Source: Oscillospiraceae bacterium
Lineage (GTDB): Bacteria; Bacillota; Clostridia; Oscillospirales; Ruminococcaceae
Assembly: GCA_020054675.1 (NCBI GenBank)
Contig: JAIHAL010000005.1
Span: 62,001-126,000 of the forward strand
Direction: 5' to 3'
DNA length: 64,000 bases
Part shown: positions 888 through 49,391 of the stretch, one piece after another
Layout: each line of letters begins with the position of its first letter
How positions within the stretch are numbered: position 1 is the stretch's first letter
Made by a program: the position numbers and the translations under genes
Notes under the pieces: generated by a model
Databases searched by the model: none
What the model was told of the DNA's origin: nothing
The model's input: only the letters and a program-made list of their open reading frames with translations

Positions 888-2321
888 TTATTCTGGCCAT
901 TCAACTTTTGTAATATCAGGATAACGTTCCATAATAGCTGTTTCAAAATTAGCCTTAGCTTTATCTAAATCAACTTTGCCTTCAAAATAATCGCCAAATG
1001 AACTTTGGATTAACTCAACACATCCTTGGTCGTAAGCTGAAAGCGGAGCAATCTTAATATTTTCAGCAACCGGCGCAAAATATTTAAATGGATTTTCTCC
1101 GCCAAGAAATTCTGATGAAAAACTTTTATCCGAAGCAAGTGCAGCCATTGCAGACCGGTTATTTGTAAAATCAGATGTTTCTTTGGAAATTTTTACAAGA
1201 TTGTCTTTGTTTGCTGTTAAAGCAAGGATTATATCTTTAGCATGCTGCGGATTATCTGTTCCTACGGCAGCATGTATGTATGAACCGCCCCAGTTGTATT
1301 CTTGCGGAGGATTTGTTACAGCCCATGCACCCTTATCGCCGTCCCAATTAGGCTTAAGCACAAAATCGATTCCCCATGCCGGGAATAAAAATGCAAATAC
1401 TTTAGATTTTGAACCCATTGCCTTGTTCCAGTCATCATTCCACTGGCCTTTTATTGCAGGGTCAAAATAACCGCTGTCTTTCCATTTTTTAGAATCGTTA
1501 ACCCAATTCATAATCTTCTTATCGACCTTAACTGTTGAAGAACCCGGCTTTACCCATGGTTCACTGATGCTGTTTCCATAAAGACGGAATGTATCTGCAT
1601 AAGAAGCAAATACATAATATCCCTTGGCCTTTAATTCTTCTGCTGCGGCTTTCATTTTATCCCAATCGGAAACTTTCTTTCCTATTTCTTCAGGATCATC
1701 AGTTCCAAATACATCCTTGGCAATATCGCGACGATATACGAGAAGCCCCGGACAACACTGCCATGTAGAACCTCTTTGCACTCCGTCAGAATCAGAAGCC
1801 GTTGTTCTTGTAAAGCTATATTGGTCTGCAAAATCTTTATCCGGATTTATTCCGATGTCTTTAAGGGGCAATGCAACATTTGCAGTTTTGTCTGTATACT
1901 TAAACACATAATCTGTTTCTGATAAAAACAAATCAACTTTATCATTATCAGCTGCACTTGCCTGATTCATAAGAGCCTCGTCAAGTTTAGCCTGATATAC
2001 GCCGTCCTGATTAGGGTTAATAATCCAGTGAATTTCAGAACCGTCCTTTAATTTTGTAACAGTCCCATCTTCAGACGTATTAACTACCTGATCATAAACA
2101 GTTTCCACACGAGTACGGAATTCGTCATTCCAGCAATAAATGTTAATAATTTTGCCTTCGTCAGCGGATGAATTTTCTGCCGACACTGATTCACTTGATG
2201 AATCAGCTGCATTTTGCCCCAATGTCGATTCGCTTGATGAATTAGCCGAATTTCCGCATCCGGCTAACATTTCCGCAGCTGTTGCCGCTGCAATTAACGC
2301 TGAAATCAATTTCTTTTTCAT
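888..2321 (-). CDS. Sugar ABC transporter substrate-binding lipoprotein
   Basis: 477 aa. The start at 2321 is chosen because a GAAGGAG site sits 9 nt upstream and the protein then opens with a lipoprotein signal: MKKK, a hydrophobic stretch, and LAGC with the lipidated Cys at residue 22. A longer frame from 2390 adds 23 residues that make no signal peptide. A Ser/Glu-rich linker precedes the mature domain, which reads as an extracellular solute-binding family 1 type protein (for example IINIYCWNDEF near the start of the mature part and WGGSYIHAAVGTDNP further on). It would capture a sugar outside the membrane and deliver it to the permeases encoded at 1-817. The AraC-type gene at 2603-3343 on the same strand is a likely regulator. 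Specificity unknown. Confidence 0.88.
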   Translation of the reverse strand: MKKKLISALIAAATAAEMLAGCGNSANSSSESTLGQNAADSSSESVSAENSSADEGKIINIYCWNDEFRTRVETVYDQVVNTSEDGTVTKLKDGSEIHWIINPNQDGVYQAKLDEALMNQASAADNDKVDLFLSETDYVFKYTDKTANVALPLKDIGINPDKDFADQYSFTRTTASDSDGVQRGSTWQCCPGLLVYRRDIAKDVFGTDDPEEIGKKVSDWDKMKAAAEELKAKGYYVFASYADTFRLYGNSISEPWVKPGSSTVKVDKKIMNWVNDSKKWKDSGYFDPAIKGQWNDDWNKAMGSKSKVFAFLFPAWGIDFVLKPNWDGDKGAWAVTNPPQEYNWGGSYIHAAVGTDNPQHAKDIILALTANKDNLVKISKETSDFTNNRSAMAALASDKSFSSEFLGGENPFKYFAPVAENIKIAPLSAYDQGCVELIQSSFGDYFEGKVDLDKAKANFETAIMERYPDITKVEWPE

Positions 2322-2545
2322 TGTAAAATTCTCCTTCTGCATATAACATACGGTTAACCCGTTGCTTATTTGATGGATAAAATATATCACAACAAATTAT
2401 AGAAATATATTATAAATCAAACTAAAACATCAAAATCATGTCATATATCATAAAATATGCAATAATTGTTTGAATAAATATCAGTAAAGTGGACAAAAAT
2501 AAGCCGAATTATCATCGGCCTGAAAATAAATTTATAGTTAACAAA

Positions 2546-2590
2546 GCCGGAGGCAGAACGGCATTTAAATGTGCCGCTCCGCCTTCCGGC
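2546..2590 (-). terminator. Long GC-rich hairpin after the AraC-type gene
   Basis: The arms GCCGGAGGC and GCCTTCCGGC pair with one bulge and an inner stem (CGGCAT with ATGTGCCG) closes on TTAA. It lies 13 nt after the regulator's stop. The minus-strand tail is only moderately T-rich, so termination is likely but not certain. The rest of the 281-bp gap (2322-2602) is AT-rich. It carries TATAAT-like boxes on the minus strand at 2396-2401 and 2409-2414 without good -35 boxes, as expected for an activator-dependent promoter. Confidence 0.55.
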
Positions 2591-2602
2591 GTCAAAGCAA
2601 AA

Positions 2603-3343
2603 TTACAGCATAGATTTATAATATTTATCCCGATACTTTTTTGGGGTTAAGCCCATAAATTTCTCAAATATTTGTATAAAATGGCTTTGGGATGAAAATG
2701 ACAAATAATTTGCAATATCAACTATTGACTGATCTGAATATCGCAAAAGTTGAGTTGCTTTTTCAATCTTTTTTTCACGAATATAATCACTTATAGAAAT
2801 CCCAAGATTTTGCTTGAACACGCGCGATAAATAATTTGCAGATAATTCAGTGTGATCGGCAAGCATTTGAACAGTTATTCTTTCGTTAATATGGCTATAT
2901 ATGTAATCCACACATTGCACAACTGGTTTTGACAAAATGGCTTTCTTTTTTTGAAGTATCATTTTGCCGGTAAAATCTTTTACCATAGAGTGATGAAGAT
3001 CCGCCACTTGTTGGATAGTATTGCAGCTGTCCATTTTTAAAATATAAAAATCACTTAATCTATATGCCAGTTCCGGCTCTAATCCCCCTTCTATACAATA
3101 TCTGGTGAGCATTGCGGCAGTAACAACAAAATGATATTTTATATTGGTAAGTGGATTGCGGGAAAGGACCCCCGTTCCTTCTAAGTTTACAAAGGCATTT
3201 TCCTCACAGTTTCGTATAACTGTATCCATATCTCCAGTTTTAACCGCATTATAAAATGAATATTCTACGTCTGGAGAACGATGATGAATTTCAAGCTCAT
3301 CATTTTGTAATTCTGAGTCAAGCCATTTATCGGAAAATGACAT
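2603..3343 (-). CDS. AraC family transcriptional regulator
   Basis: 246 aa. The ATG at 3343 has GGAGG 7 nt upstream, better than the ATG at 3364. The C-terminal ~100 residues are a canonical double helix-turn-helix AraC domain. The first helix-turn-helix is in the region of VQMLADHTELSANYLSRVFK. The second is around QSIVDIANYLSFSSQSHFIQ, followed by the typical FMGLTPKKYRDKY end. The N-terminal ~140 residues have no cupin motif I can recognise; YesN-type regulators of carbohydrate uptake often have such variable sensing parts. Its position just upstream of the sugar importer, on the same strand, suggests it activates that operon. Confidence 0.9.
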   Translation of the reverse strand: MSFSDKWLDSELQNDELEIHHRSPDVEYSFYNAVKTGDMDTVIRNCEENAFVNLEGTGVLSRNPLTNIKYHFVVTAAMLTRYCIEGGLEPELAYRLSDFYILKMDSCNTIQQVADLHHSMVKDFTGKMILQKKKAILSKPVVQCVDYIYSHINERITVQMLADHTELSANYLSRVFKQNLGISISDYIREKKIEKATQLLRYSDQSIVDIANYLSFSSQSHFIQIFEKFMGLTPKKYRDKYYKSML

Positions 3344-3545
3344 AATCGCACCTCCATATATCATGCAAATTTATGGCAAGTTAAATTTCCTCATGATAAA
3401 ATTTTAAGCTTCAAACGACAATTACAATATACATGGAAATCAGTCAATACGTCAATAGAATCTGTTTTAAAAGTATAAGTATCGTATCAAGTATCGTACC
3501 AAACCGTTTTTTACAGACAATTCTTAATTTTACCATAAAATACAA

Positions 3546-3581
3546 AAGCTGCAAATGCCGTAAAACAGGCATTTGCAGCTT
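3546..3581 (-). terminator. Intrinsic terminator after tRNA-Pro
   Basis: A perfect 14-bp stem (3546-3559 with 3568-3581) with an 8-nt loop starts just past the tRNA 3' end. On the minus strand it is followed by a T-rich tail (TTTTGTATTTT). Confidence 0.88.
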
Positions 3582-3588
3582 ATTTTCC

Positions 3589-3665
3589 TGGTCTGGGTGA
3601 CCGGACTTGAACCGACGACCTCTACCACCCCAAGGTAGCGCGCTACCAAACTGCGCCACACCCAG
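3589..3665 (-). tRNA. tRNA-Pro (anticodon GGG)
   Basis: 77 nt on the minus strand including an encoded CCA. The 7-bp acceptor stem is CTGGGTG with CACCCAG, discriminator A. The D-loop contains GGTAGCGC, the T-arm contains GGTTCGAACC, and the anticodon stem CTACC/GGTAG encloses the loop TTGGGGT, giving anticodon GGG (reads CCC). It lies 51 nt downstream of the uvrA stop and is followed by its own terminator. Confidence 0.96.
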
Positions 3666-3716
3666 TTACAAGACTTATATATTATAATACATAAGTCTTG
3701 AAAATGCAAGTGACGT

Positions 3717-6557
3717 TTATATTTTTTTAGTTTTATTTAATATTTTTTTCAAATACTGACCTGTATATGATGCCTCGCAAGCGGCGATTTCCTCCGGAGT
3801 GCCTGTTTTTACCACTGTTCCTCCGCCGTTTCCGCCCTCCGGCCCTAAATCTATAATGTAATCCGCAGTCTTTATAACATCAAGGTTATGCTCTATCACT
3901 ATGACGGTATTTCCGCCCTCAACAAGCTTTTGGAGAACCTCTACAAGCCTGTGCACATCCGCCGTATGAAGCCCCGTTGTAGGCTCGTCAAGAATGTAAA
4001 CCGTCCTGCCGGTTGCACGCTTTGAAAGCTCGGTTGCAAGCTTTACCCTTTGCGCCTCACCTCCGGAAAGAGTTGTCGCAGGCTGTCCTATCTTCACATA
4101 TCCAAGTCCGACCTCCAAAAGGGTTTGAAGCTTTCTTGATATCCTCGGAATATTTTCAAAAAAGCGAACCCCCTCCTCAACGGTCATCTCTAAAACATCG
4201 TAAATGGATTTGCCTTTGTATTTTATGTCAAGAGTTTCACGATTGTATCTTTTGCCCTTGCAAACCTCACACGGAACGTAAACATCCGGCAAAAAGTGCA
4301 TTTCAATTTTTACAATCCCGTCGCCCTGGCAAGCCTCGCATCGTCCGCCTTTTACGTTGAATGAAAACCTCCCGCTCGTATAGCCTTTCATCTTTGCATC
4401 GTTAGTCTGGGCGAAAAGGTCCCGTATATCCGTAAAAACTCCCGTATAAGTTGCGGGATTTGACCGCGGGGTCCTGCCTATCGGGGATTGGTCTATATCA
4501 ATCACCTTATCAAGATGTTCAAGGCCGGTAATTTCAGAAAACTTCCCAGCCCGGCACCTTGCACGGTTTAGCTTTGAGGCAAGATGCTTGAAAATTATTT
4601 CATTTACAAGAGAGGATTTTCCCGAACCGGAAACTCCCGTCACGCAGGTAAATGTGCCAAGCGGAATTTTAACATCAACGTTTTTAAGATTGTTTTCGGC
4701 GGCGCCGTAAACGCAAAGGAAATTCCCGTTTCCCTCACGCCTTTTCTGCGGGACGGGTATAAATTTCTCTCCGCTTAAATACTGTCCTGTTATGGATTCC
4801 GGACATGCCTTGATGTCATCAACCGTTCCGGCGCAAACCACCTTTCCGCCGTGGACTCCAGCCCCCGGGCCTATGTCGACTATATAATCCGCGCTAAGCA
4901 TGGTATCCTCATCATGCTCGACAACTATGACAGTATTCCCCATGTCGCGCAGCCTTTTGAGCGTTGCTATGAGCTTATCATTGTCGCGCTGGTGAAGCCC
5001 TATGCTCGGCTCGTCAAGGATATAAAGCACTCCCATCAGCGATGAGCCTATTTGCGTGGCAAGCCTTATGCGCTGGCTTTCCCCGCCGGAAAGCGTTCCG
5101 GAAGAGCGCGCCAGTGTAAGGTATTCAAGTCCCACGCTTTTCAGAAAACCAAGCCTTTCCTTTATTTCTTTTATAATCCTTTCGGCTATGAATTTTTCAC
5201 GCTCGCTTAAATTCAGTTTTTGGAAAAAATCCAGCGCTTCGGCAACCGAAAGCCGTGTAAGCTCCATTATGTTCTTCCCGCCGACCGTAACCGAAAGGCT
5301 TTCCTTTTTAAGCCTGTCCCCATGGCATTCCGGACACGGAACATCGCTCATGTATGACATCAGTTCATCCCTTGCGTATTCGCTGGAGCTTTCCTTGAAC
5401 CTGCGTTCAAGATTGTTTACCACTCCCTCAAATGCGGCATAGTAAATCCCTCCGCCGTATTCGGCAGGACGTTTAAGCTCAAGCTTTTCGCCGTTTGTGC
5501 CGTAAAGAAAAATGTCAAGCTGTTCCTTTTTAAGATTTTTAACAGGCTCATCAAGCGGTATACCATATCTTTCGGAAATAGCGCTGTAATACATCATTGC
5601 AAACGTGCCGTCCTCAATGGTATTCCAGCCCGGCGCCCTTATTGCCCCCTGCATTATTGAAAGCTCTTTATCCGGAACAACAAGCTCCGGGTCCACCTTT
5701 TGGAAAACGCCGAGGCCTGTGCATTTTTCGCAGGCGCCAAACGGATTGTTGAACGAAAACATCCTTGGCGTAAGCTCTTCTATGGAAATATTATGCTCCG
5801 GACATGCATAGCTTTGCGAAAAGAGCATTTCCTCCCCGTCAATAACATCGACAATCACAAGCCCGCCGGAAATTCCGAACACCGTTTCAAGGCTGTCGGT
5901 AAGCCTTGGCTTTATTCCGTCCTTTACAACAAGCCTGTCAACGACTATTTCAATATTATGCTTTTTATTCTTATCAAGCTTTATTTCTTCTGACAAATCA
6001 TATATGTTCCCGTCTATCCTTATGCGCACAAAGCCGGATTTTTTAGCCCTTTCTATCTCCTTTGCATGTTCGCCTTTTCTTCCTCTGACAACAGGGGCAA
6101 GAAGCTGGATTTTTGAACCCTCCGGCAGTTCGCATATCTGGTCAACAATCTGGTCTATCGTCTGCTGTTTTATTTCCCTGCCGCAGATTGGGCAATGCGG
6201 AATCCCTATCCTTGCGTAAAGCAGTCTTAAATAATCGTAAATTTCGGTAACCGTTCCCACAGTCGAACGTGGATTTTTTGAAGTAGTCTTCTGGTCTATC
6301 GAAATTGCCGGAGAAAGGCCCTCTATGCTGTCTACATCCGGCTTTTCCATTTGCCCCAAAAACTGCCTTGCGTATGAGGAAAGGCTTTCCATATACCTTC
6401 TCTGCCCATCGGCATAAATTGTGTCAAACGCAAGGGACGATTTTCCCGAACCGGAAAGTCCCGTCATTACCACAAGGCTGTCGCGCGGTATTTCAAGGTC
6501 CACGTTTTTGAGGTTATGCTCCCTTGCGCCCTTTATTATGATTTTATCTCTTTGCAT
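3717..6557 (-). CDS. uvrA: Excinuclease ABC subunit A
   Basis: 946 aa, full length for UvrA. This ATPase finds DNA lesions with UvrB in nucleotide excision repair. It shows two ABC modules. The first Walker A is GLSGSGKS at residues 33-40, with an early zinc finger (CPICGREI) and signature [12 protein letters not shown]. The second Walker A is GVSGSGKSS, with the C-terminal zinc-hook cysteines CEACQGDG and CEVCKGK, signature [12 protein letters not shown], and Walker [13 protein letters not shown]. It starts 1 nt after the uvrB stop, so the two are co-translated in a radC-uvrB-uvrA operon. No SOS box was evident in the upstream region. Confidence 0.99.
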
Positions 6558-9353: not shown

Positions 9354-10304
9354 TTGAGAGAATTTGTGATAAATGAAAACGACTCCGGCCAAAGAGTGGA
9401 CAAATTTCTGCAAAAAGCCGTAAAAAGGCTGCCGCAAAGCCTTATGTACAAATACATCCGCACAAAGAGGATAAAGCTTAACGGCAAAAGATGTGAAATT
9501 TCCGAAAAGCTCAAGGCCGGCGATACAATGCAGCTTTATATAGGCGATGAATTTTTTGACGAAAGCCCCGATACAGAATTTCTTTGCGCCCCTTCCAAAA
9601 TAGATATTGTTTACGAAGATGAAAACATCCTGCTTGTGGATAAAAAATGCGGGCTTGTGGTGCATGAGGATGAGGAAAAAACTCCCGATACCCTTATAAA
9701 CCGGATAAAGCATTATCTTTACGAAAAAGGCGAGTATCTTCCGGAAAAGGAAAACTCCTTTGCGCCATCCCTTTGCAACAGGCTTGACAGGAATACCGGC
9801 GGAATAGTCATTGCCGCAAAAAATGCCGAAAGTTTAAGGATTTTAAACCAAAAAATAAAGGACAGGGAAATTGAAAAGCACTATCTCTGCATAACATGCG
9901 GATATCCGCCAAAAGACAGCGATACCGCAAAAGCGTACCTTGAAAAGGACAGCTCAGAAAAACAGGTAAAGATTTCAAATAAGAAAACTTCCGCCAACAA
10001 AACAATAATAACAAAATATACGGTCTTAAAGAAAAAAGACGGCCTTGCGCTTGTGGATGTGGATTTAATCACCGGAAGAACCCATCAAATCAGGGCGCAC
10101 ATGGCATATCTCGGGTGCCCCTTGCTCGGCGACGGGAAATACGGAAGCAACAGGATAAACTCTAAATATTCGCTGAAAACGCAGGCCCTTTACTCCTACA
10201 AACTTATATTTAAATTCACAACAGACGGCGGAATACTTAATTATTTAAACAATAAGTCTTTTGAGGTTAATAATATTTGGTTTAAGGAAAAATATTTTGA
10301 ATAG
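9354..10304 (+). CDS. RluA family 23S rRNA pseudouridine synthase
   Basis: 316 aa from a TTG codon. GAAAGGA lies 8 nt upstream and the promoter -10 sits upstream of it, so the ATG at 9285 is rejected. The N-terminal S4 RNA-binding domain spans about residues 12-70. The catalytic motif NRLDRNTGG contains the essential Asp at residue 145. Family hallmarks include the RTHQIRAHMAYLGCPLLGD segment. It isomerises uridines in ribosomal RNA; RluC/RluD type is likely, but the exact sites cannot be read from sequence. Confidence 0.93.
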   Translation: MREFVINENDSGQRVDKFLQKAVKRLPQSLMYKYIRTKRIKLNGKRCEISEKLKAGDTMQLYIGDEFFDESPDTEFLCAPSKIDIVYEDENILLVDKKCGLVVHEDEEKTPDTLINRIKHYLYEKGEYLPEKENSFAPSLCNRLDRNTGGIVIAAKNAESLRILNQKIKDREIEKHYLCITCGYPPKDSDTAKAYLEKDSSEKQVKISNKKTSANKTIITKYTVLKKKDGLALVDVDLITGRTHQIRAHMAYLGCPLLGDGKYGSNRINSKYSLKTQALYSYKLIFKFTTDGGILNYLNNKSFEVNNIWFKEKYFE

Positions 10305-10321
10305 ATTTTACAAAAAAATTG

Positions 10322-10351
10322 TTGCGCGATTCAACTGTTTTGTGATATAAT
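10322..10351 (+). promoter_or_regulatory. Promoter for the PHP/malic enzyme operon
   Basis: TTGCGC (10322-10327), an 18-nt spacer and TATAAT (10346-10351) preceded by TGA as an extended -10. It is 55 nt before the PHP gene. Confidence 0.65.
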
Positions 10352-10406
10352 TATTCTGTTATTATTGTATCAGCCCTTTTTATTTTGCTTATGAGGAGGA
10401 TGAAAA

Positions 10407-11264
10407 ATGAAAGGTGATTTACATTGCCATACCAAACTTTCAGACGGTTCCCTTGGAATTGAAGACATCATCGTGCAAGCAAAGAGGACGGGAATTGATT
10501 TTATATCAATAACCGACCACGATACTCTTGCCTCGTTTTCGCGCGCTGCCGTTCTGGGCGAAAGGTATGGGGTGCACATTCTCCCCGGGGTTGAGCTTTC
10601 GGCCTGGGATAAGGAACGCGGACGAAAAGTCCACATATTATGCTATGCCCCGCAAAAACCGGACCGGCTTGAAGGGCTTTGCCTTAAATCCTGCGAAATC
10701 CGTAAAGCCTGCGCAAAAGAAATGCTTGAAAAAGTTATGAAGCTTTATCCGATAACGCCCGAAAGCGTCATGAAATACGCAACCGGCAGTAAAAGCATTT
10801 TTAAACAGCATATTATGCACGCTTTGATGGACTACGGCTATACTACCCATTTTTACGGAAAACTCAATGATGAGCTTTTTAACCATAAAACGGGAAGCTG
10901 CATTGTTGAAAGGGAGTATCCGGACGTGAACTTTGTTATTGACCTTGTTCACTCCGCAAGAGGGGTTGCCGTCATGGCCCATCCGGTGCATTACGACAGC
11001 CTTGACCTCCTTGAAGACCTTGCTCAAAAAGGCAAGCTTGACGGGGTCGAGGTTTTTCATTATACTGCTAATAAGGAGCAGCGCAAAAAACTTCTTCAAA
11101 CGGCGGAAAAATACAATCTCATTGTGACCGGCGGCTCGGATTTCCACGGAATCTACAACACAAAGCCGACTCATATCGGCAGCGAAACCACCGACAAGGA
11201 AAACCTTGACAGGATATTCAAGCTTGCCAACGCCGGAAAAAAGAGCACAGTTTCGGTGCGCTGA
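10407..11264 (+). CDS. PHP-domain phosphoesterase (YciV/TrpH-like)
   Basis: 285 aa. The PHP metal-binding motifs are clear: DLHCHTKLSDG at the N-terminus (His6, His8), ISITDHDTL, the VMAHPVHY segment and a C-terminal GGSDFHG. Family members hydrolyse phosphodiesters using two or three metal ions; relatives such as E. coli YciV act on 3',5'-nucleoside bisphosphates and short RNA ends. GAGGAGG lies before the start. It is followed after 38 nt by the malic enzyme gene, probably in one transcript. The substrate assignment is by family only. Confidence 0.88.
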   Translation: MKGDLHCHTKLSDGSLGIEDIIVQAKRTGIDFISITDHDTLASFSRAAVLGERYGVHILPGVELSAWDKERGRKVHILCYAPQKPDRLEGLCLKSCEIRKACAKEMLEKVMKLYPITPESVMKYATGSKSIFKQHIMHALMDYGYTTHFYGKLNDELFNHKTGSCIVEREYPDVNFVIDLVHSARGVAVMAHPVHYDSLDLLEDLAQKGKLDGVEVFHYTANKEQRKKLLQTAEKYNLIVTGGSDFHGIYNTKPTHIGSETTDKENLDRIFKLANAGKKSTVSVR

Positions 11265-42408: not shown

Positions 42409-43239
42409 TTAATTCGTCCCCTTTTCTTTTTCATAATATTCTTCAAGGCAAAGTCCGCTGTCCTTGATTTTTTGAGCGTAATAAGGCCCCACAAAGCGGT
42501 AGTGCCACGGCTCATATTCTATGCCGGTTATCTTTTCCTTGCCCTTGGGATACCTTAAAATAAAGCCATACTTTGCGGCATTTTCGGAAAGCCATTTAAA
42601 TTCATCCGTCTTTTCAAAATCCTCGGTAAGCGAATAGCTCCCTGCCTCTAAAATATCTGCGCATATGCCGGCGTTATGTTCGCTCTGCCCCGGAATTGCC
42701 ACTGCCTGCGAAGCCATTTTAACCGCTTCCTCATGCGAATAGCCCTGCTTTTCATATTTTTTGGTATCATTATCAAGCAAAGTCTGCTGGTACTCCACGC
42801 TGCGGTATGCCGAAACGATATTTAAATTCACGCCGGCCTTTTTAGCATCGGCAAGCATATTTATCATATAGTCGGCGCAACGGGCATCCATTTCAAATTT
42901 TCCTTGAACAGCCTTTCTTTCAAACGTATAATTATCCGGCAAAGGATGTGTCTGATTTATAAGAAAAAAAGCCCATTCATTTTTATCCACCGCGGCATCT
43001 CCCCCACCTGACGAAGATGAAGCGCTGCTTTCAGGTTCTCCACCGACTACTATTGCCGAGCTTCCGTCTGCAACGGATGTATTCAGCGAAACTGAACTCT
43101 GCTCCGAAGTTTGCGATGAAGCGGAAGCCGTTGTACTTTCTTCCGTTTTACTCTTCCTCATCGTCCCCGGAAGGGTGGCCAAAAACACAATCCCCAAAAG
43201 CAGAATGCTTATAAGCAATATATATTTCACCGATTTCAT
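42409..43239 (-). CDS. D-alanyl-D-alanine carboxypeptidase, VanY family
   Basis: 276 aa. GGAGG lies 7 nt before the ATG at 43239. One membrane anchor (MKSVKYILLISILLLGIVFL) precedes a Ser-rich linker. The zinc peptidase M15B domain has SAYRSVEYQ, the zinc motif SEHNAGICADI (His, Asp) and EPWHYRFVG (Glu, His). It trims D-Ala from peptidoglycan stem peptides, outside the membrane. It has its own promoter and terminator. Confidence 0.94.
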   Translation of the reverse strand: MKSVKYILLISILLLGIVFLATLPGTMRKSKTEESTTASASSQTSEQSSVSLNTSVADGSSAIVVGGEPESSASSSSGGGDAAVDKNEWAFFLINQTHPLPDNYTFERKAVQGKFEMDARCADYMINMLADAKKAGVNLNIVSAYRSVEYQQTLLDNDTKKYEKQGYSHEEAVKMASQAVAIPGQSEHNAGICADILEAGSYSLTEDFEKTDEFKWLSENAAKYGFILRYPKGKEKITGIEYEPWHYRFVGPYYAQKIKDSGLCLEEYYEKEKGTN

Positions 43240-43267
43240 CTTTATGCCTCCAAAACAAACTTTTAAT

Positions 43268-43296
43268 ATTATAGCATTTTGGAACGGCAAATACAA
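43268..43296 (-). promoter_or_regulatory. Promoter for the VanY-type gene
   Basis: On the minus strand TTGTAT (43296-43291), a 17-nt spacer and TATAAT (43273-43268) with TGC before it (extended -10). Confidence 0.8.
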
Positions 43297-44929: not shown

Positions 44930-45082
44930 GTAGATAGGAAACTATCTCAAATGTTTGTTGCTACTCGATATGCAACTCAAACAAGGTCGAGCTCAAATGT
45001 TTGTCGCACCTCGATGAGCGACTAATAAAAGGTCGAGTTCAAATGTTTGAAGCTCCATTCGAAAGAATGGGGCTTCTTTATT
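44930..45082 (+). ncRNA. cptI: Type III antitoxin RNA (CptI-like), 46-nt pseudoknot repeats
   Basis: Three units begin with TCAAATGTTTG at 44947, 44993 and 45039, exactly 46 nt apart. The first two are complete: each has a stem, GTTGC/GCAAC (44957-44961, 44972-44976) and GTCGC/GCGAC (45003-45007, 45018-45022). The T-A to C-G change preserves pairing. In each, the loop CTCGA (44964-44968; 45010-45014) is complementary to TCGAG downstream (44987-44991; 45033-45037), giving an H-type pseudoknot. The third, partial unit runs into a terminator. By knowledge of type III systems, the RNA units are cut by the toxin and inhibit it. The 5' end is inferred from the promoter. Confidence 0.88.
45049..45079 (+). 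terminator. Terminator between antitoxin RNA and toxin
   Basis: GAAGCTCCATTC (45049-45060) pairs with GAATGGGGCTTC (45065-45076) around GAAA with one G-T pair. A T-rich tail follows. This is the usual position in type III systems: most transcripts stop here and a few read into the toxin gene. Confidence 0.9.
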
Positions 45083-45096
45083 AATGGGGTAGTTTA

Positions 45097-45582
45097 ATGA
45101 TGGTTGTCGGTCATTTTTATTATATTAGTGATCAATATTTTATTGATTTTCCAGATCCTTATTTAATGAAAAATAAAGAAATGGTGAATGGTCAGCCCCA
45201 TAATCGACCTTGCTTTTATACTTTTCTTGATGAAGCAACCGGACTATATTGGCTCATTCCATTCTCTTCACAAACAGCAAAATTCCATGATTATTATAAT
45301 AAAAAAATTCAGAAATACGGAAAGTGCGACACCATCGTATTTGGAGAAGTCCTTGGCCATGAGAAAGCATTCTTGATTCAAAATATCTGCCCGGTAACCA
45401 GTTCATACATATTAAATGAATATATTGATTCGGTTGCAAATATACCGGTACGAGTTGATGGCCGGCTTGAACAGGAATTGATTACAAAAGCAAAAAAGGT
45501 AATTGCGCTTCAAAGGAAAGGTGTCAAATTGATTTTTCCGGACGTACTTTCAATAGAAAAATCATTGCTAGAACAAAAATAA
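45097..45582 (+). CDS. cptN: Type III toxin endoribonuclease, CptN/ToxN-like
   Basis: 161 aa; a second ATG follows the first. GGGGTAG lies 4 to 7 nt upstream. The protein reads FYYISDQYFIDFPDPYLM at the N-terminus, then a Phe/Tyr-rich core, then LYWLIPFSSQTAKFHDYYNK, a layout I recognise from the CptN/ToxN/TenpN endoribonucleases. FLIQNICPVTSSYI and a Lys/Arg-rich end (KKVIALQRKGVKLIFP) are also in line. The preceding pseudoknot repeats and terminator decide the assignment. By family knowledge, free toxin cuts cellular RNA and can cause abortive phage infection. It is convergent with mcrC. Confidence 0.85.
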   Translation: MMVVGHFYYISDQYFIDFPDPYLMKNKEMVNGQPHNRPCFYTFLDEATGLYWLIPFSSQTAKFHDYYNKKIQKYGKCDTIVFGEVLGHEKAFLIQNICPVTSSYILNEYIDSVANIPVRVDGRLEQELITKAKKVIALQRKGVKLIFPDVLSIEKSLLEQK

Positions 45583-45601
45583 ATACTTAAATAGACAAAT
45601 T

Positions 45602-45639
45602 CCCCCTATAATTTTACTTTAAGCAAAAATTATAGGGGG
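45602..45639. terminator. Hairpin between toxin and mcrC
   Basis: A perfect 14-bp stem (45602-45615 with 45626-45639) with a 10-nt loop lies between two convergent genes. The tails are AT-rich, so it may serve both. Confidence 0.8.
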
Positions 45640-45652
45640 TAATAAAAAATAT

Positions 45653-47020
45653 TCACTCTTCAAATTTTTTTGAATTTTCAGGGAATTCTTCTTTCCAAAT
45701 CTTTATGTTACACTCCATTTTTTCACAAAACTCATTATAATGAGATCCATTTGGAATAATAAAAGGGATTTTATAACATCCCACTTCTTCTGCATAAAAA
45801 CTTTTAAATGGATTTAATATTAAATTTTCTATTGTTTCATTTTGGTCAGTTCCGTTTTGAACAGGATAAATTATCCCACATTTATTCCCGCCTGTAATAT
45901 AAAGGTATGATAAAAGCTGGTGCATATCGTCATTATTATAATTCCATTTCTTGTATTTTGCATCAAACACATTACGCCGGTCTCCATTTTCAACTTTTTT
46001 AACAAAGTCCGGATACCATTTCCTTTTGTCTTTTGTATATTTTATGCCGGAACTTTTTTGGGGAATAAAATGTTCATAATTATCAAGCAATTTAACTGCT
46101 ATGAAGTTTTCCCATAACCAAGAAATATCTATTAATAACCCAAAACTTTCCTCTTCTTGCTCTTCATAGATATTGTCTCCTTCTTCTTTAAGCAGTCGAA
46201 GACAAATTTGCCTGATTTTTTCATAATCTTGGAACATGGGATGTGTAATTTGATTGTGGCACTTTGGTTTTTGCTGATATTTTATATTCATTTGAAATGA
46301 TGGCGTGGCTTCTTCAATAACATTTTCAATTTCATACATAATACTATGCGATTTGCAATAATTCGACCACAAATCATAATATTTGCCTTTTATAAATTCA
46401 AATGTTTGCCTTATCATGCAAAGAATATCATTGTCATAGCTGTATTCCCTTGTATTATAAGCAGTTTTGCCTATAAAAGGAACATTGCACTTTATATGCC
46501 TTGCCACATCAAAATAGCCCTTAAAATTAAAGTCATTATGCTTGAAAGTCTTATAAACCTTATACAATCCTTCATTATATGCTTCTTGTATTTTTTCACA
46601 AAAAAGAATTACAAGAATCAAATCAAAAATTGATTCGTTTAAGTTTTCAATATTGCAATTATACAAAGTAAAATCGTAATATGTACTAATTAAATACAAT
46701 AAAAAATATTGTTTTTCCGAAACGTCAAATCTGGAATGGATTTCTAACCGAATATCCGGAACTGAAATTACACCGACCCAATTAGTAGTTAATATTTTAT
46801 CGTTCTTACGCCAAAAAATATCTTCATTATTTTTATTTGCTTTAACATCTTCCGGTATTCTAATCAGTTTGTTGACATCAATATTTTGGAATTTTTTCAA
46901 TTTATTCCATTGTTCTTCTGTTATGTCTCCATTATCAGATGATGTTTCATTATCAATTTTATATTCATTGTTGTCTGTCCAAATAATTATATCTGAGTTA
47001 TTCGGCATTATTTTTTCCAT
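45653..47020 (-). CDS. mcrC: McrC-family nuclease subunit of an McrBC-type restriction system
   Basis: 455 aa. McrC supplies the PD-(D/E)XK nuclease and stimulates McrB. The C-terminal half carries WYPDFVKKV, then FDAKYKKWN (Asp...Asp-x-Lys), the expected catalytic pattern. The N-terminal part with GVISVPDIRLEIHSRFDVSE is the McrC-type domain that contacts McrB. It overlaps the end of mcrB by 23 nt on the same strand, so the two are coupled. It lies in an AT-rich, defence-related stretch. Confidence 0.9.
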   Translation of the reverse strand: MEKIMPNNSDIIIWTDNNEYKIDNETSSDNGDITEEQWNKLKKFQNIDVNKLIRIPEDVKANKNNEDIFWRKNDKILTTNWVGVISVPDIRLEIHSRFDVSEKQYFLLYLISTYYDFTLYNCNIENLNESIFDLILVILFCEKIQEAYNEGLYKVYKTFKHNDFNFKGYFDVARHIKCNVPFIGKTAYNTREYSYDNDILCMIRQTFEFIKGKYYDLWSNYCKSHSIMYEIENVIEEATPSFQMNIKYQQKPKCHNQITHPMFQDYEKIRQICLRLLKEEGDNIYEEQEEESFGLLIDISWLWENFIAVKLLDNYEHFIPQKSSGIKYTKDKRKWYPDFVKKVENGDRRNVFDAKYKKWNYNNDDMHQLLSYLYITGGNKCGIIYPVQNGTDQNETIENLILNPFKSFYAEEVGCYKIPFIIPNGSHYNEFCEKMECNIKIWKEEFPENSKKFEE

Positions 47021-48599
47021 CCTGATTTTTTTTATCCTTTATGCCACAAAATCCATTATACATTTCTTTAATATTATCATCACTTCCTCTTTTATTTCTT
47101 GCATATTCATTTAGAATTTGACAAATATGATTATACCAGACCTCTTTTAATGCTTCTGTATAATCCTCAGGCGTGTCCATATATAAATTTATTTTAGCAA
47201 AATAAGCCGGGCCGATATGATAATGCCTTGTAAGATTAAGTTCACTTACTATTGCTTCATTTAAAGCTTTAATTTTTTCGCAATAATCTTTATAATTATC
47301 CCCTAATTTTTGGTCAACGCCCATAGCTTCAAGTACTTTTGCCATGACTTCATCAGCTTTGACCTCATACCATGCAAAACGTCTTCTCATGGCAAAGTCA
47401 AAAATTTCAACGCTTCTGTCAATATTATTCATGGTTCCGATTATATAAACATTGCTTGGAATAAAAAATTTATCTTCTTTTGTATCAATAAAAAAAGTAT
47501 CTTCCGTTGCACAAGAAGAATATTGTGTGGAAATTTTTCCTTTATCCCCTCTATAATCCACATCAATACAGAACATTACTTCACCGAAAACTTTTGAAAT
47601 TTCAGCGCGGTTTATTTCATCAATTATAAACAAAAATTCCGGAAGATTTTCAATTACTTCATTGACAATCTCAATGCTTTTATCCGAATTATTATATTTA
47701 TCTATAGCTTCCTTTAAGCCGGAGTTGGACTCAATTTGTTCTTTCCAAAAATTAATAACTTCTTGCTTTTGACCTTTTAAAAATTTTTCTATATTTTCCT
47801 TGTTAATATTCCTATTTGCTGACATTATTCTTTCAATTACGCCGGCGCTTCTGCAAAAAGATTTAAACACCCCATTTTTAAGTATATATGAAAGTTCTTT
47901 CCCGGAAAGTTCAGGCCTTATTCCGTCAATAAAATCAGTATAATCATATGATGGGTGAAACTGAACCATATCAATTCTTATTTCTTCATTATCTGTAATG
48001 CCAAGCTCTTTAGCTATTTCATTTAATGCCGAATAAGTTTTTCCAGTACCCGGCGCTCCATGAAGAATAAGCTGCTTGTTTGCTTTAAGAAGTTGGACAT
48101 ATTTATTGCTTGAAGAAACATTTTCATTTCCTACATTTATATCTGCAACAGTCTGATCATTTGATGCTTCTTTTAATTCATTTATTAAATTTTCCATTTC
48201 TTCTCTCTTCCACCACTTATCTTTTAATATTTCCTCTATTTTATTAGATACATCTTTAATTGTGCTTTCTTCAGTTAAACCTTGTTCTTGACGAAAATAA
48301 TCTTTATTGCTAGATCTATTTTTACCTCCTTTAAAATATGCATAAGAATTAGCGCTTACTGTATTAGTACTTTTTTCTTCAATTTCTGTACTACTTCTTT
48401 TCTCACTATGATATCTATTTATATATATTTTTAATAAAGTTTCATTAAGCAATAATCCAAATAAAAAATCAATTTTTTTAGCATTCCCCCAAATATTTCT
48501 TTTTTTTTCTATAAAACTGTCTAACCACTTATTTTCTTCAATGTTTTTAAACATTTCTTCAAATTCTTTTAAAGTGGTTTTGTCGGTTACTTTTAACAC
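46998..48599 (-). CDS. mcrB: McrB-like GTPase motor with a variant N-terminal domain
   Basis: 533 aa from a GTG with GGGGGTG 7 nt upstream. The AAA+ GTPase part has Walker A GAPGTGKT (residues 181-188), Walker B FLFIIDEINRAE, and the McrB hallmark GTMNNIDRS, then FAMRRRFAWYEV. In E. coli, McrB with GTP forms a hexamer that moves DNA to McrC. The N-terminal ~150 residues (LKEFEEMFKNIEENKWLDSF, FLFGLLLNETLLKIYINRYH) should recognise the target, but they do not match a DNA-binding domain I know. The same domain is present as a separate gene upstream. Confidence 0.92.
   Translation of the reverse strand: MLKVTDKTTLKEFEEMFKNIEENKWLDSFIEKKRNIWGNAKKIDFLFGLLLNETLLKIYINRYHSEKRSSTEIEEKSTNTVSANSYAYFKGGKNRSSNKDYFRQEQGLTEESTIKDVSNKIEEILKDKWWKREEMENLINELKEASNDQTVADINVGNENVSSSNKYVQLLKANKQLILHGAPGTGKTYSALNEIAKELGITDNEEIRIDMVQFHPSYDYTDFIDGIRPELSGKELSYILKNGVFKSFCRSAGVIERIMSANRNINKENIEKFLKGQKQEVINFWKEQIESNSGLKEAIDKYNNSDKSIEIVNEVIENLPEFLFIIDEINRAEISKVFGEVMFCIDVDYRGDKGKISTQYSSCATEDTFFIDTKEDKFFIPSNVYIIGTMNNIDRSVEIFDFAMRRRFAWYEVKADEVMAKVLEAMGVDQKLGDNYKDYCEKIKALNEAIVSELNLTRHYHIGPAYFAKINLYMDTPEDYTEALKEVWYNHICQILNEYARNKRGSDDNIKEMYNGFCGIKDKKNQDGKNNAE
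48361..48590. repeat. Duplicated segment, copy in mcrB
   Basis: These 230 bp match 48949-49175 (227 bp) at about 95% by hand count, with one 3-nt difference. They encode the same N-terminal domain in both genes. The match drops on either side. Confidence 0.9.
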
Positions 48600-48664
48600 T
48601 ATGACACCCCCATAACACCATTTAACTTCATTGAAATATTATACTTTTTAAAAATAATAATTTA

Positions 48665-48730
48665 AAAAAATAAAAGACTACCATATTTTTTATAATTATA
48701 AAAAATAATTTGGAAAGTCTTTTATTTTTT
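48665..48730. terminator. Long hairpin between the stand-alone domain gene and mcrB
   Basis: A-rich AAATAAAAGACT pairs with AGTCTTTTATTTT, with an inner AT hairpin. The minus-strand tail is T-rich. It lies 16 nt past the stand-alone gene, so mcrBC may be transcribed partly by read-through. Confidence 0.7.
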
Positions 48731-48746
48731 AATATTTCCTCCAATG

Positions 48747-49184
48747 TTAATTATTAGAAATTTTTTTCAAATCTTTTATTAAATCTTCTATTTCCTTTTG
48801 TTTTTCATTTTGGCCTTTTAATATTTCATTTATTTTATTAGACACATCTTTAATTGTGCTGTGTTCATTCAGTCCTTGTTTTTCTTGTGAAAAATCATCT
48901 TTACTGGTTTGTATTTCCATTACATATCCATAAGAATTTCGCTTTACAGTATTAGTACTTTTTTCTTCAATTTCTGTACTACTTCTTTTTTCACTATGAT
49001 ATCTATTTATATATATTTTTAATAAAGTTTCATTAAGCAATAATCCAAATAAAAAATCAAATTTCTTAGCATTTCCCCGCATATTTCTTTTTTCTATAAA
49101 ACTGTCTAACCACTTATTTTCTTCAATGTTTTTAAACATTTCTCCAAATTCTTTTAAAGTAGTCTCATCTGTTACCTTGTACAT
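48747..49184 (-). CDS. Stand-alone copy of the McrB N-terminal domain
   Basis: 145 aa. GGAGGG lies 7 nt before the ATG at 49184. Residues 1-80 are nearly identical to the mcrB N-terminus (KEFGEMFKNIEENKWLDSF, FLFGLLLNETLLKIYINRYH, SEKRSSTEIEEKSTNTV). The C-terminal helical part (STIKDVSNKINEILKG) also matches but more loosely, and the protein stops before any ATPase motif. It is thus a free copy of the presumed target-recognition domain. It could compete with, assist or regulate McrB. I know of no named family for this arrangement. It is in an operon-like order before mcrB but separated by a terminator-like hairpin. Confidence 0.88.
   Translation of the reverse strand: MYKVTDETTLKEFGEMFKNIEENKWLDSFIEKRNMRGNAKKFDFLFGLLLNETLLKIYINRYHSEKRSSTEIEEKSTNTVKRNSYGYVMEIQTSKDDFSQEKQGLNEHSTIKDVSNKINEILKGQNEKQKEIEDLIKDLKKISNN
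48949..49175. repeat. Duplicated segment, stand-alone gene copy
   Basis: The partner of 48361-48590, about 95% identical by hand count. The 3-nt difference removes one Lys codon. Confidence 0.9.
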
Positions 49185-49391
49185 TGCAAAACCCTCCAAT
49201 AAAATTATTTTATAAGTTAAAAAATCGTCAAAATAAATTTTATTTCGTTAAAAGAATAGAATTTATTTTGCCAATTATAAGAATTATTATATACTATTTT
49301 TTCTTATTGTCAACATATTTTGAAAAATAAATTTAAATTTCTATTTATTTTTACAAAATACGCTCTAAAATTTGTGAAAAAATAAAAAACA

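Follow-up and report, generated by a model that had tools for sequence, protein, structure and literature searches.

Upstream of a complete mcrB-mcrC pair in the genome of an Oscillospiraceae bacterium, we found a small separate gene that is a free-standing copy of the N-terminal domain of the neighboring McrB. The stretch analyzed, referred to here as the window, comprises 64,000 nucleotides, and all coordinates refer to it unless another locus is named. On the minus strand, the small gene (49184-48747) is followed by 147 nt of intergenic sequence, mcrB (48599-46998), and mcrC (47020-45653), the last two overlapping by 23 nt. The small gene (48747..49184) encodes 145 amino acids from an ATG and has an intact start codon and ribosome-binding site (RBS) (GGAGGG), while mcrB (46998..48599) starts with GTG and encodes 533 amino acids, namely, an N-terminal domain (residues 1-149, encoded by the copied part of the gene at 48150..48599) and an AAA+ GTPase-type domain. 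The coordinates given in the original prediction, made from the sequence, were correct. We tentatively interpret the free domain as an additional subunit that would damp a predicted McrBC-type enzyme.

The McrBC core and its surroundings

We examined the core for the hallmarks of McrBC, a phage-defense enzyme of the type IV restriction class. The Walker A (GAPGTGKT), Walker B (FIIDEIN), and NxxD (MNNID) motifs of McrB all lie in invariant alignment columns, and the protein matched AAA_5 in Pfam (3.7e-9) as well as the solved structures of Escherichia coli McrB (2e-37). Against the McrB model NF008457, the match (7.4e-41) was under the cut-off of that model. McrC (45653..47020, minus strand, 455 amino acids) matched PF10117 with an E value of 2.1e-38 and 132 bits (cut-off, 23.9), and its nuclease motif (PD...DAK) is readable, which identifies it as a DUF2357/PD-(D/E)xK partner. 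By the features tested here, the core is an ordinary McrBC, and it looks intact.

The N-terminal domain had no credible match in Pfam, PADLOC, NCBIfam, PHROGs, or the PDB, and none of the known modified-base recognition domains (ADAM/DUF3578, EVE, YTH) was found at the N terminus of McrB by Pfam, NCBIfam, PHROGs, or PDB searches. Given that uncharacterized N-terminal domains are common among McrBs, this does not exclude the protein from the McrBC group. DNA recognition by the domain would be an analogy with other McrBs, and its pI of 6 to 7 gives no hint of DNA binding. AlphaFold2, applied to the two-sequence alignment of the domain, returned an unusable model (pLDDT of 44, helices only), and sequence searches of the PDB using profiles of either this domain or that of the second locus described below (L166) gave nothing significant. 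Partial matches to DUF3990/PDC-M13A reached only 16 to 18 bits and were treated as chance; the true PDC-M13A of the same genome lies elsewhere (G000:C11:10059-10532), and true members in this genome score 228 bits.

Convergent with mcrC, we detected a type III toxin-antitoxin system of the CptIN family (44946-45582, plus strand), in which a 46-nt repeat array (44946-45049) precedes the toxin (45097-45582; NF047359, E value of 1.3e-61). The G+C content across 45000-49200 was 25 to 32%, versus 36 to 45% in both flanks, and by this parameter, the block formed by CptIN and McrBC looks like a small acquired defense island. Farther away (42409-43296, minus strand), there is a secreted homologue of VanY-like D-Ala-D-Ala carboxypeptidases, scoring below the NCBIfam cut-offs, which is in all likelihood an ordinary cell wall enzyme.

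In order to put this layout into perspective, we compared it with known systems of the superfamily. In E. coli K-12, the McrBC locus also yields a partial McrB chain, and the balance between full McrB and this form, McrBs, which lacks the recognition domain, controls assembly with McrC and restriction (PMC12707154). McrBs consists of the motor, lacks the N-terminal domain, and arises by internal initiation within mcrB, while the partial form encoded in the window is the N-terminal domain without the motor and comes from a separate upstream gene; the domain itself is not DUF3578/ADAM by Pfam. The description of the locus as the reverse of E. coli was therefore apt, since a free copy of the N-terminal domain stands beside an intact McrBC. 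The restriction cassettes LlaI and BsuMI have a third open reading frame (ORF) beside an McrB/McrC-like pair, and their McrB homologue is short (337 to 343 amino acids), all of it aligning with the C-terminal part of R1.LlaJI (PMC1459862), whereas the McrB of the window, with 533 amino acids, still has its N-terminal domain, of which the extra gene is a copy. CoCoNuT systems, members of the McrBC superfamily with extra components, have GTPases with an NxD motif and long coiled-coil fusions (PMC11090510), unlike the NxxD motif (MNNID) found here. The added gene thus fits none of these three kinds of system; the open-licence papers searched contained no description of such a layout, in agreement with the original prediction.

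Divergence between the two copies and expression signals

The small protein aligned only with residues 1 to 148 of McrB (BLASTP, 106/148 identical [72%], 124/148 positive, E value of 9e-64) and had no AAA match, confirming that it carries no ATPase. At the DNA level, identity between the small gene and mcrB was 83.6% over 434 nt when gapped, with ungapped stretches of 92% over 170 nt and 86% over 110 nt. This similarity extends from the start codons to the stop codon of the small gene, at which point McrB continues into the motor; that is, the copy is domain precise.

The divergence was unevenly distributed. Within codons 14 to 80 of the small gene (48945..49145, minus strand; 48357..48560 on the mcrB side), only 8 of 201 nt differed and dS was 0.13, while outside this tract, dS was 1.10 and dN was 0.31. 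The 95% identity over 227 bp reported in the original prediction fits this central tract, but the flanks, which it did not mention, are much more diverged. Among codons with an unchanged amino acid, 4 of 61 had synonymous changes in the tract versus 11 of 43 outside (Fisher P value of 0.01), and permutation gave a P value of 0.005 for a tract with at most three changes, both values referring to borders chosen after inspection of the data. The most diverged segment was codons 81 to 100 (dN of 0.58), and the C-terminal part also differed most between the copies. Given this mosaic, the simplest reading is an older duplication, the middle of which was recently homogenized, rather than merely a fresh copy. 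Thus, of the two origins first put forward, recent duplication or ongoing gene conversion, the former is disfavored by the flanks, while the homogenized center agrees with recent exchange.

If the duplication is old, the frame of the small gene would have been open for a long time. Relative to McrB, it has indels of one and two complete codons and contains no internal stop, so that it is not a frameshifted fragment here. The proposed comparison of synonymous and nonsynonymous changes yielded a dN/dS ratio of 0.28 outside the tract (bootstrap range, 0.10 to 0.55), with 4.8% of the bootstraps at 0.5 or above, the range (0.5 or more) expected under neutral drift of one copy. The probability of finding no stop after 40 neutral changes is ca. 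0.1. Together, these values are modest evidence, not proof, that both copies are constrained.

Several trivial origins were discarded. The copies are 16% diverged in DNA, which rules out an assembly artifact or a tandem repeat, and McrB keeps its own full N-terminal domain, which rules out a frameshifted or split mcrB. A simple head-to-tail duplication including the upstream region was unsupported by comparison of the intergenic sequences: in L166, nothing resembling the interval between the small gene and mcrB precedes the small gene, and in the window, the resemblance is limited to short A+T-rich matches.

The small gene is preceded by a perfect match to the consensus sigma70-type promoter, TTGACA-16-TATAAT (49286..49313, minus strand), which occurred in 6 of 20,000 dinucleotide shuffles of that intergenic region. 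Between the two genes, we detected a long hairpin with a U-rich 3' flank (48659..48736, minus strand), terminator- or attenuator-like, with a z score of -3.84 and no shuffle as stable among 200. A simple terminator scan missed it because the stem is A+T rich and has a long arm. The hairpin is followed by a weaker promoter-like site for mcrBC, TTTAAA-17-TATAAT (48638..48666, minus strand; 10/12 positions), a type of match that is common by chance here. The translation start of the small gene (RBS GGAGGG, ATG) likewise looks more favorable than that of mcrB (RBS GGGGG, GTG). From the promoter, hairpin, RBS, and start codon, we infer that the free domain probably outnumbers McrB.

Relatives of the locus and a second case

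Searches of 394 genomes from the order, of the other genome of its genus, and of phage and plasmid records revealed no relative of the small protein. Pattern scans of 85,000 species genomes and of viral contigs, which are sensitive to close relatives only, were also negative. The absence of the gene from all relatives had been named beforehand as an outcome that would speak against the idea, and for this particular gene, that is what we observed across the 394 genomes, phages, plasmids, and viral contigs.

The nearest McrB motors were those of Lachnoanaerobaculum, with 59 to 66% identity. The closest motor found, that of Lachnoanaerobaculum orale (L045), had 59% identity and was the sister of the window McrB in the tree (support of 0.998), and its McrC matched with an E value of 5e-114. 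The N-terminal domain of the window was absent from both Lachnoanaerobaculum McrBC loci; in L. orale, the McrB has a different N-terminal domain, with no copy of it nearby. Since these motors occur without the domain, the motor, as judged from sequence, predates its combination with this N-terminal domain. The locus of Lachnoanaerobaculum gingivalis (L048, 4827-7524), with both mcrB and mcrC broken into two reading frames apiece and a pair of near-identical transposase-like ORFs on either side (2936-4261 and 10046-11037), is a decaying McrBC between insertion elements.

We then searched for self-copies in a set of 194 McrB frames with an N-terminal part of at least 60 amino acids, gathered from genome contigs, whole genomes, and viral contigs and including some near-duplicate loci; the test was repeated at the DNA and six-frame levels. 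The layout was present in 2 of these 194 frames, that of the window and L166, so that the search for a lone domain beside mcrB in other genomes, suggested by the original prediction, provided one further case, with a nonhomologous domain. A viral-contig scan with a second alignment gave 12 loci, mostly on contigs found before.

L166 belongs to a genome (G557) of another family within the same phylum. As in the window, a free copy of the N-terminal domain of its own McrB lies directly upstream of mcrB, encoded by a gene of 142 amino acids; over 414 nt, this gene and the beginning of mcrB are 90% identical in DNA. The copy ends at the domain end, has an AGGAGG RBS, and is separated from mcrB by a 13-bp hairpin (z score of -3.88). 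The differences from the window are that the domain is unrelated in sequence (probability of similarity, 0.1%), that no consensus promoter was found upstream of the small gene, and that the copies are younger, with dN (0.12) nearly equal to dS (0.13), values that fit either a relic or divergent selection. Their most divergent segment was codons 61 to 80 (dN of 0.23). The two McrBs were not sisters in the tree, and the L166 small gene was absent from 22 relatives of G557. Given that the domains are unrelated, that the McrBs are not sisters, and that neither the 22 relatives nor the nearest relative of the window has the layout, it likely arose independently in the two loci. This recurrence is suggestive of a function of the spare copy, though it is no proof.

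Other candidates were set aside. In L049, an exact 366-nt repeat of the 5' end of mcrB (123-488 and 3755-4120), cut in mid-domain, lies downstream of mcrC and is fused into a truncated amylase gene; it is an insertion scar or an assembly join and pictures what a random relic or artifact looks like. L106 has a remote paralogue located further downstream. Other matches look like split or broken mcrB genes. In L042 (2912-5014), there are one or more in-frame stops at a 3-nt gap between the N-terminal part (2912-3343) and the rest of mcrB (3347-5014), and the McrBs of L164, L136, L152, and L158 are likewise split between the N-terminal part and the motor. A viral contig (L191, IMGVR_UViG_3300028591_008364) has two different mcrB-like genes directly in tandem (2268-4226 and 4236-5996).

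Possible roles of the free domain

The explanation we favor, though tentatively and at somewhat less than even confidence, is that the free N-terminal domain competes with or caps that of McrB and damps the enzyme. The domain would be an additional McrBC subunit with its own gene, promoter, and RBS, set apart from mcrBC by the hairpin and made in excess over McrB. Sharing the ligand, the self-association surface, or both with the N-terminal domain of McrB, it would act on McrB at its targets by competition or capping and so raise the threshold for attack. This would be the mirror image of E. coli McrBs, which consists of the motor minus the recognition domain and draws McrC away. We counted in favor of this tuning role the domain-precise copy beside an intact McrBC, its non-fresh frame with whole-codon indels and a dN/dS ratio below the neutral expectation, its expression signals, the recurrence in L166, and the McrBs precedent (PMC12707154). 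Counted against it were the lack of conservation of the small gene, the rarity of the layout, the near-equal dN and dS in L166, the lack of a known domain family, the pI, and the unusable structural model.

The main rival, to which we give somewhat less credence, is that the small gene is an inert relic, a functionless partial duplication left over by chance in a family in which mcrB N-terminal domains are often exchanged. The same rarity, lack of conservation, and L166 substitution pattern agree with it, as do the L049 repeat, which illustrates that partial duplications occur, and the several surveyed McrBs that look broken between the N-terminal domain and the motor. However, a relic that has accumulated a dS of ca. 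1.1 outside the tract would hardly be expected to retain an open frame with in-frame indels only, and domain-precise ends, promoter, RBS, and hairpin, counted as twice independent, contrast with the mid-domain cut of L049.

That the free domain instead serves as an extra recognition subunit, binding targets with perhaps a shifted specificity and recruiting or coassembling with McrBC to widen its range, appears unlikely. The concentration of differences in one central segment of each pair of copies, and in the C-terminal part, is what specificity changes would produce, and cassettes with a third ORF beside an McrB lacking the N-terminal part are known (LlaI and BsuMI; PMC1459862). Yet the McrB of the window retains its own N-terminal domain and would not need a third subunit for recognition, DNA binding by the domain is postulated by analogy, and the copy lacks the AAA+ part through which McrB assembles. 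Least probable of all, in our opinion, is a sequence reservoir, in which the copy would act as a recombination or conversion template to change the recognition domain of McrB or in which deletion between the direct repeats, ca. 588 nt apart, would eliminate the small gene together with the hairpin and bring mcrB under the consensus promoter. The mosaic identity is in line with such exchange, but its borders were picked after data inspection, the conversion seen here homogenizes rather than diversifies, and a reservoir needs neither promoter, RBS, nor open frame.

Beyond this locus, the tuning role can be extended to the proposal, which we hold with more doubt, that McrBC systems repeatedly and independently evolve a stand-alone, separately expressed copy of their recognition domain as a dedicated regulator or decoy that sets the threshold of the motor. 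What is understood of how McrBC-type motors spare the host comes mainly from E. coli McrBs. If the proposal is true, such motors would have a second means of tuning, opposite to the first, in a free recognition domain that recurs with unrelated domains. If the copies are instead relics or conversion partners, they still record the duplication and rewriting of McrB recognition domains.
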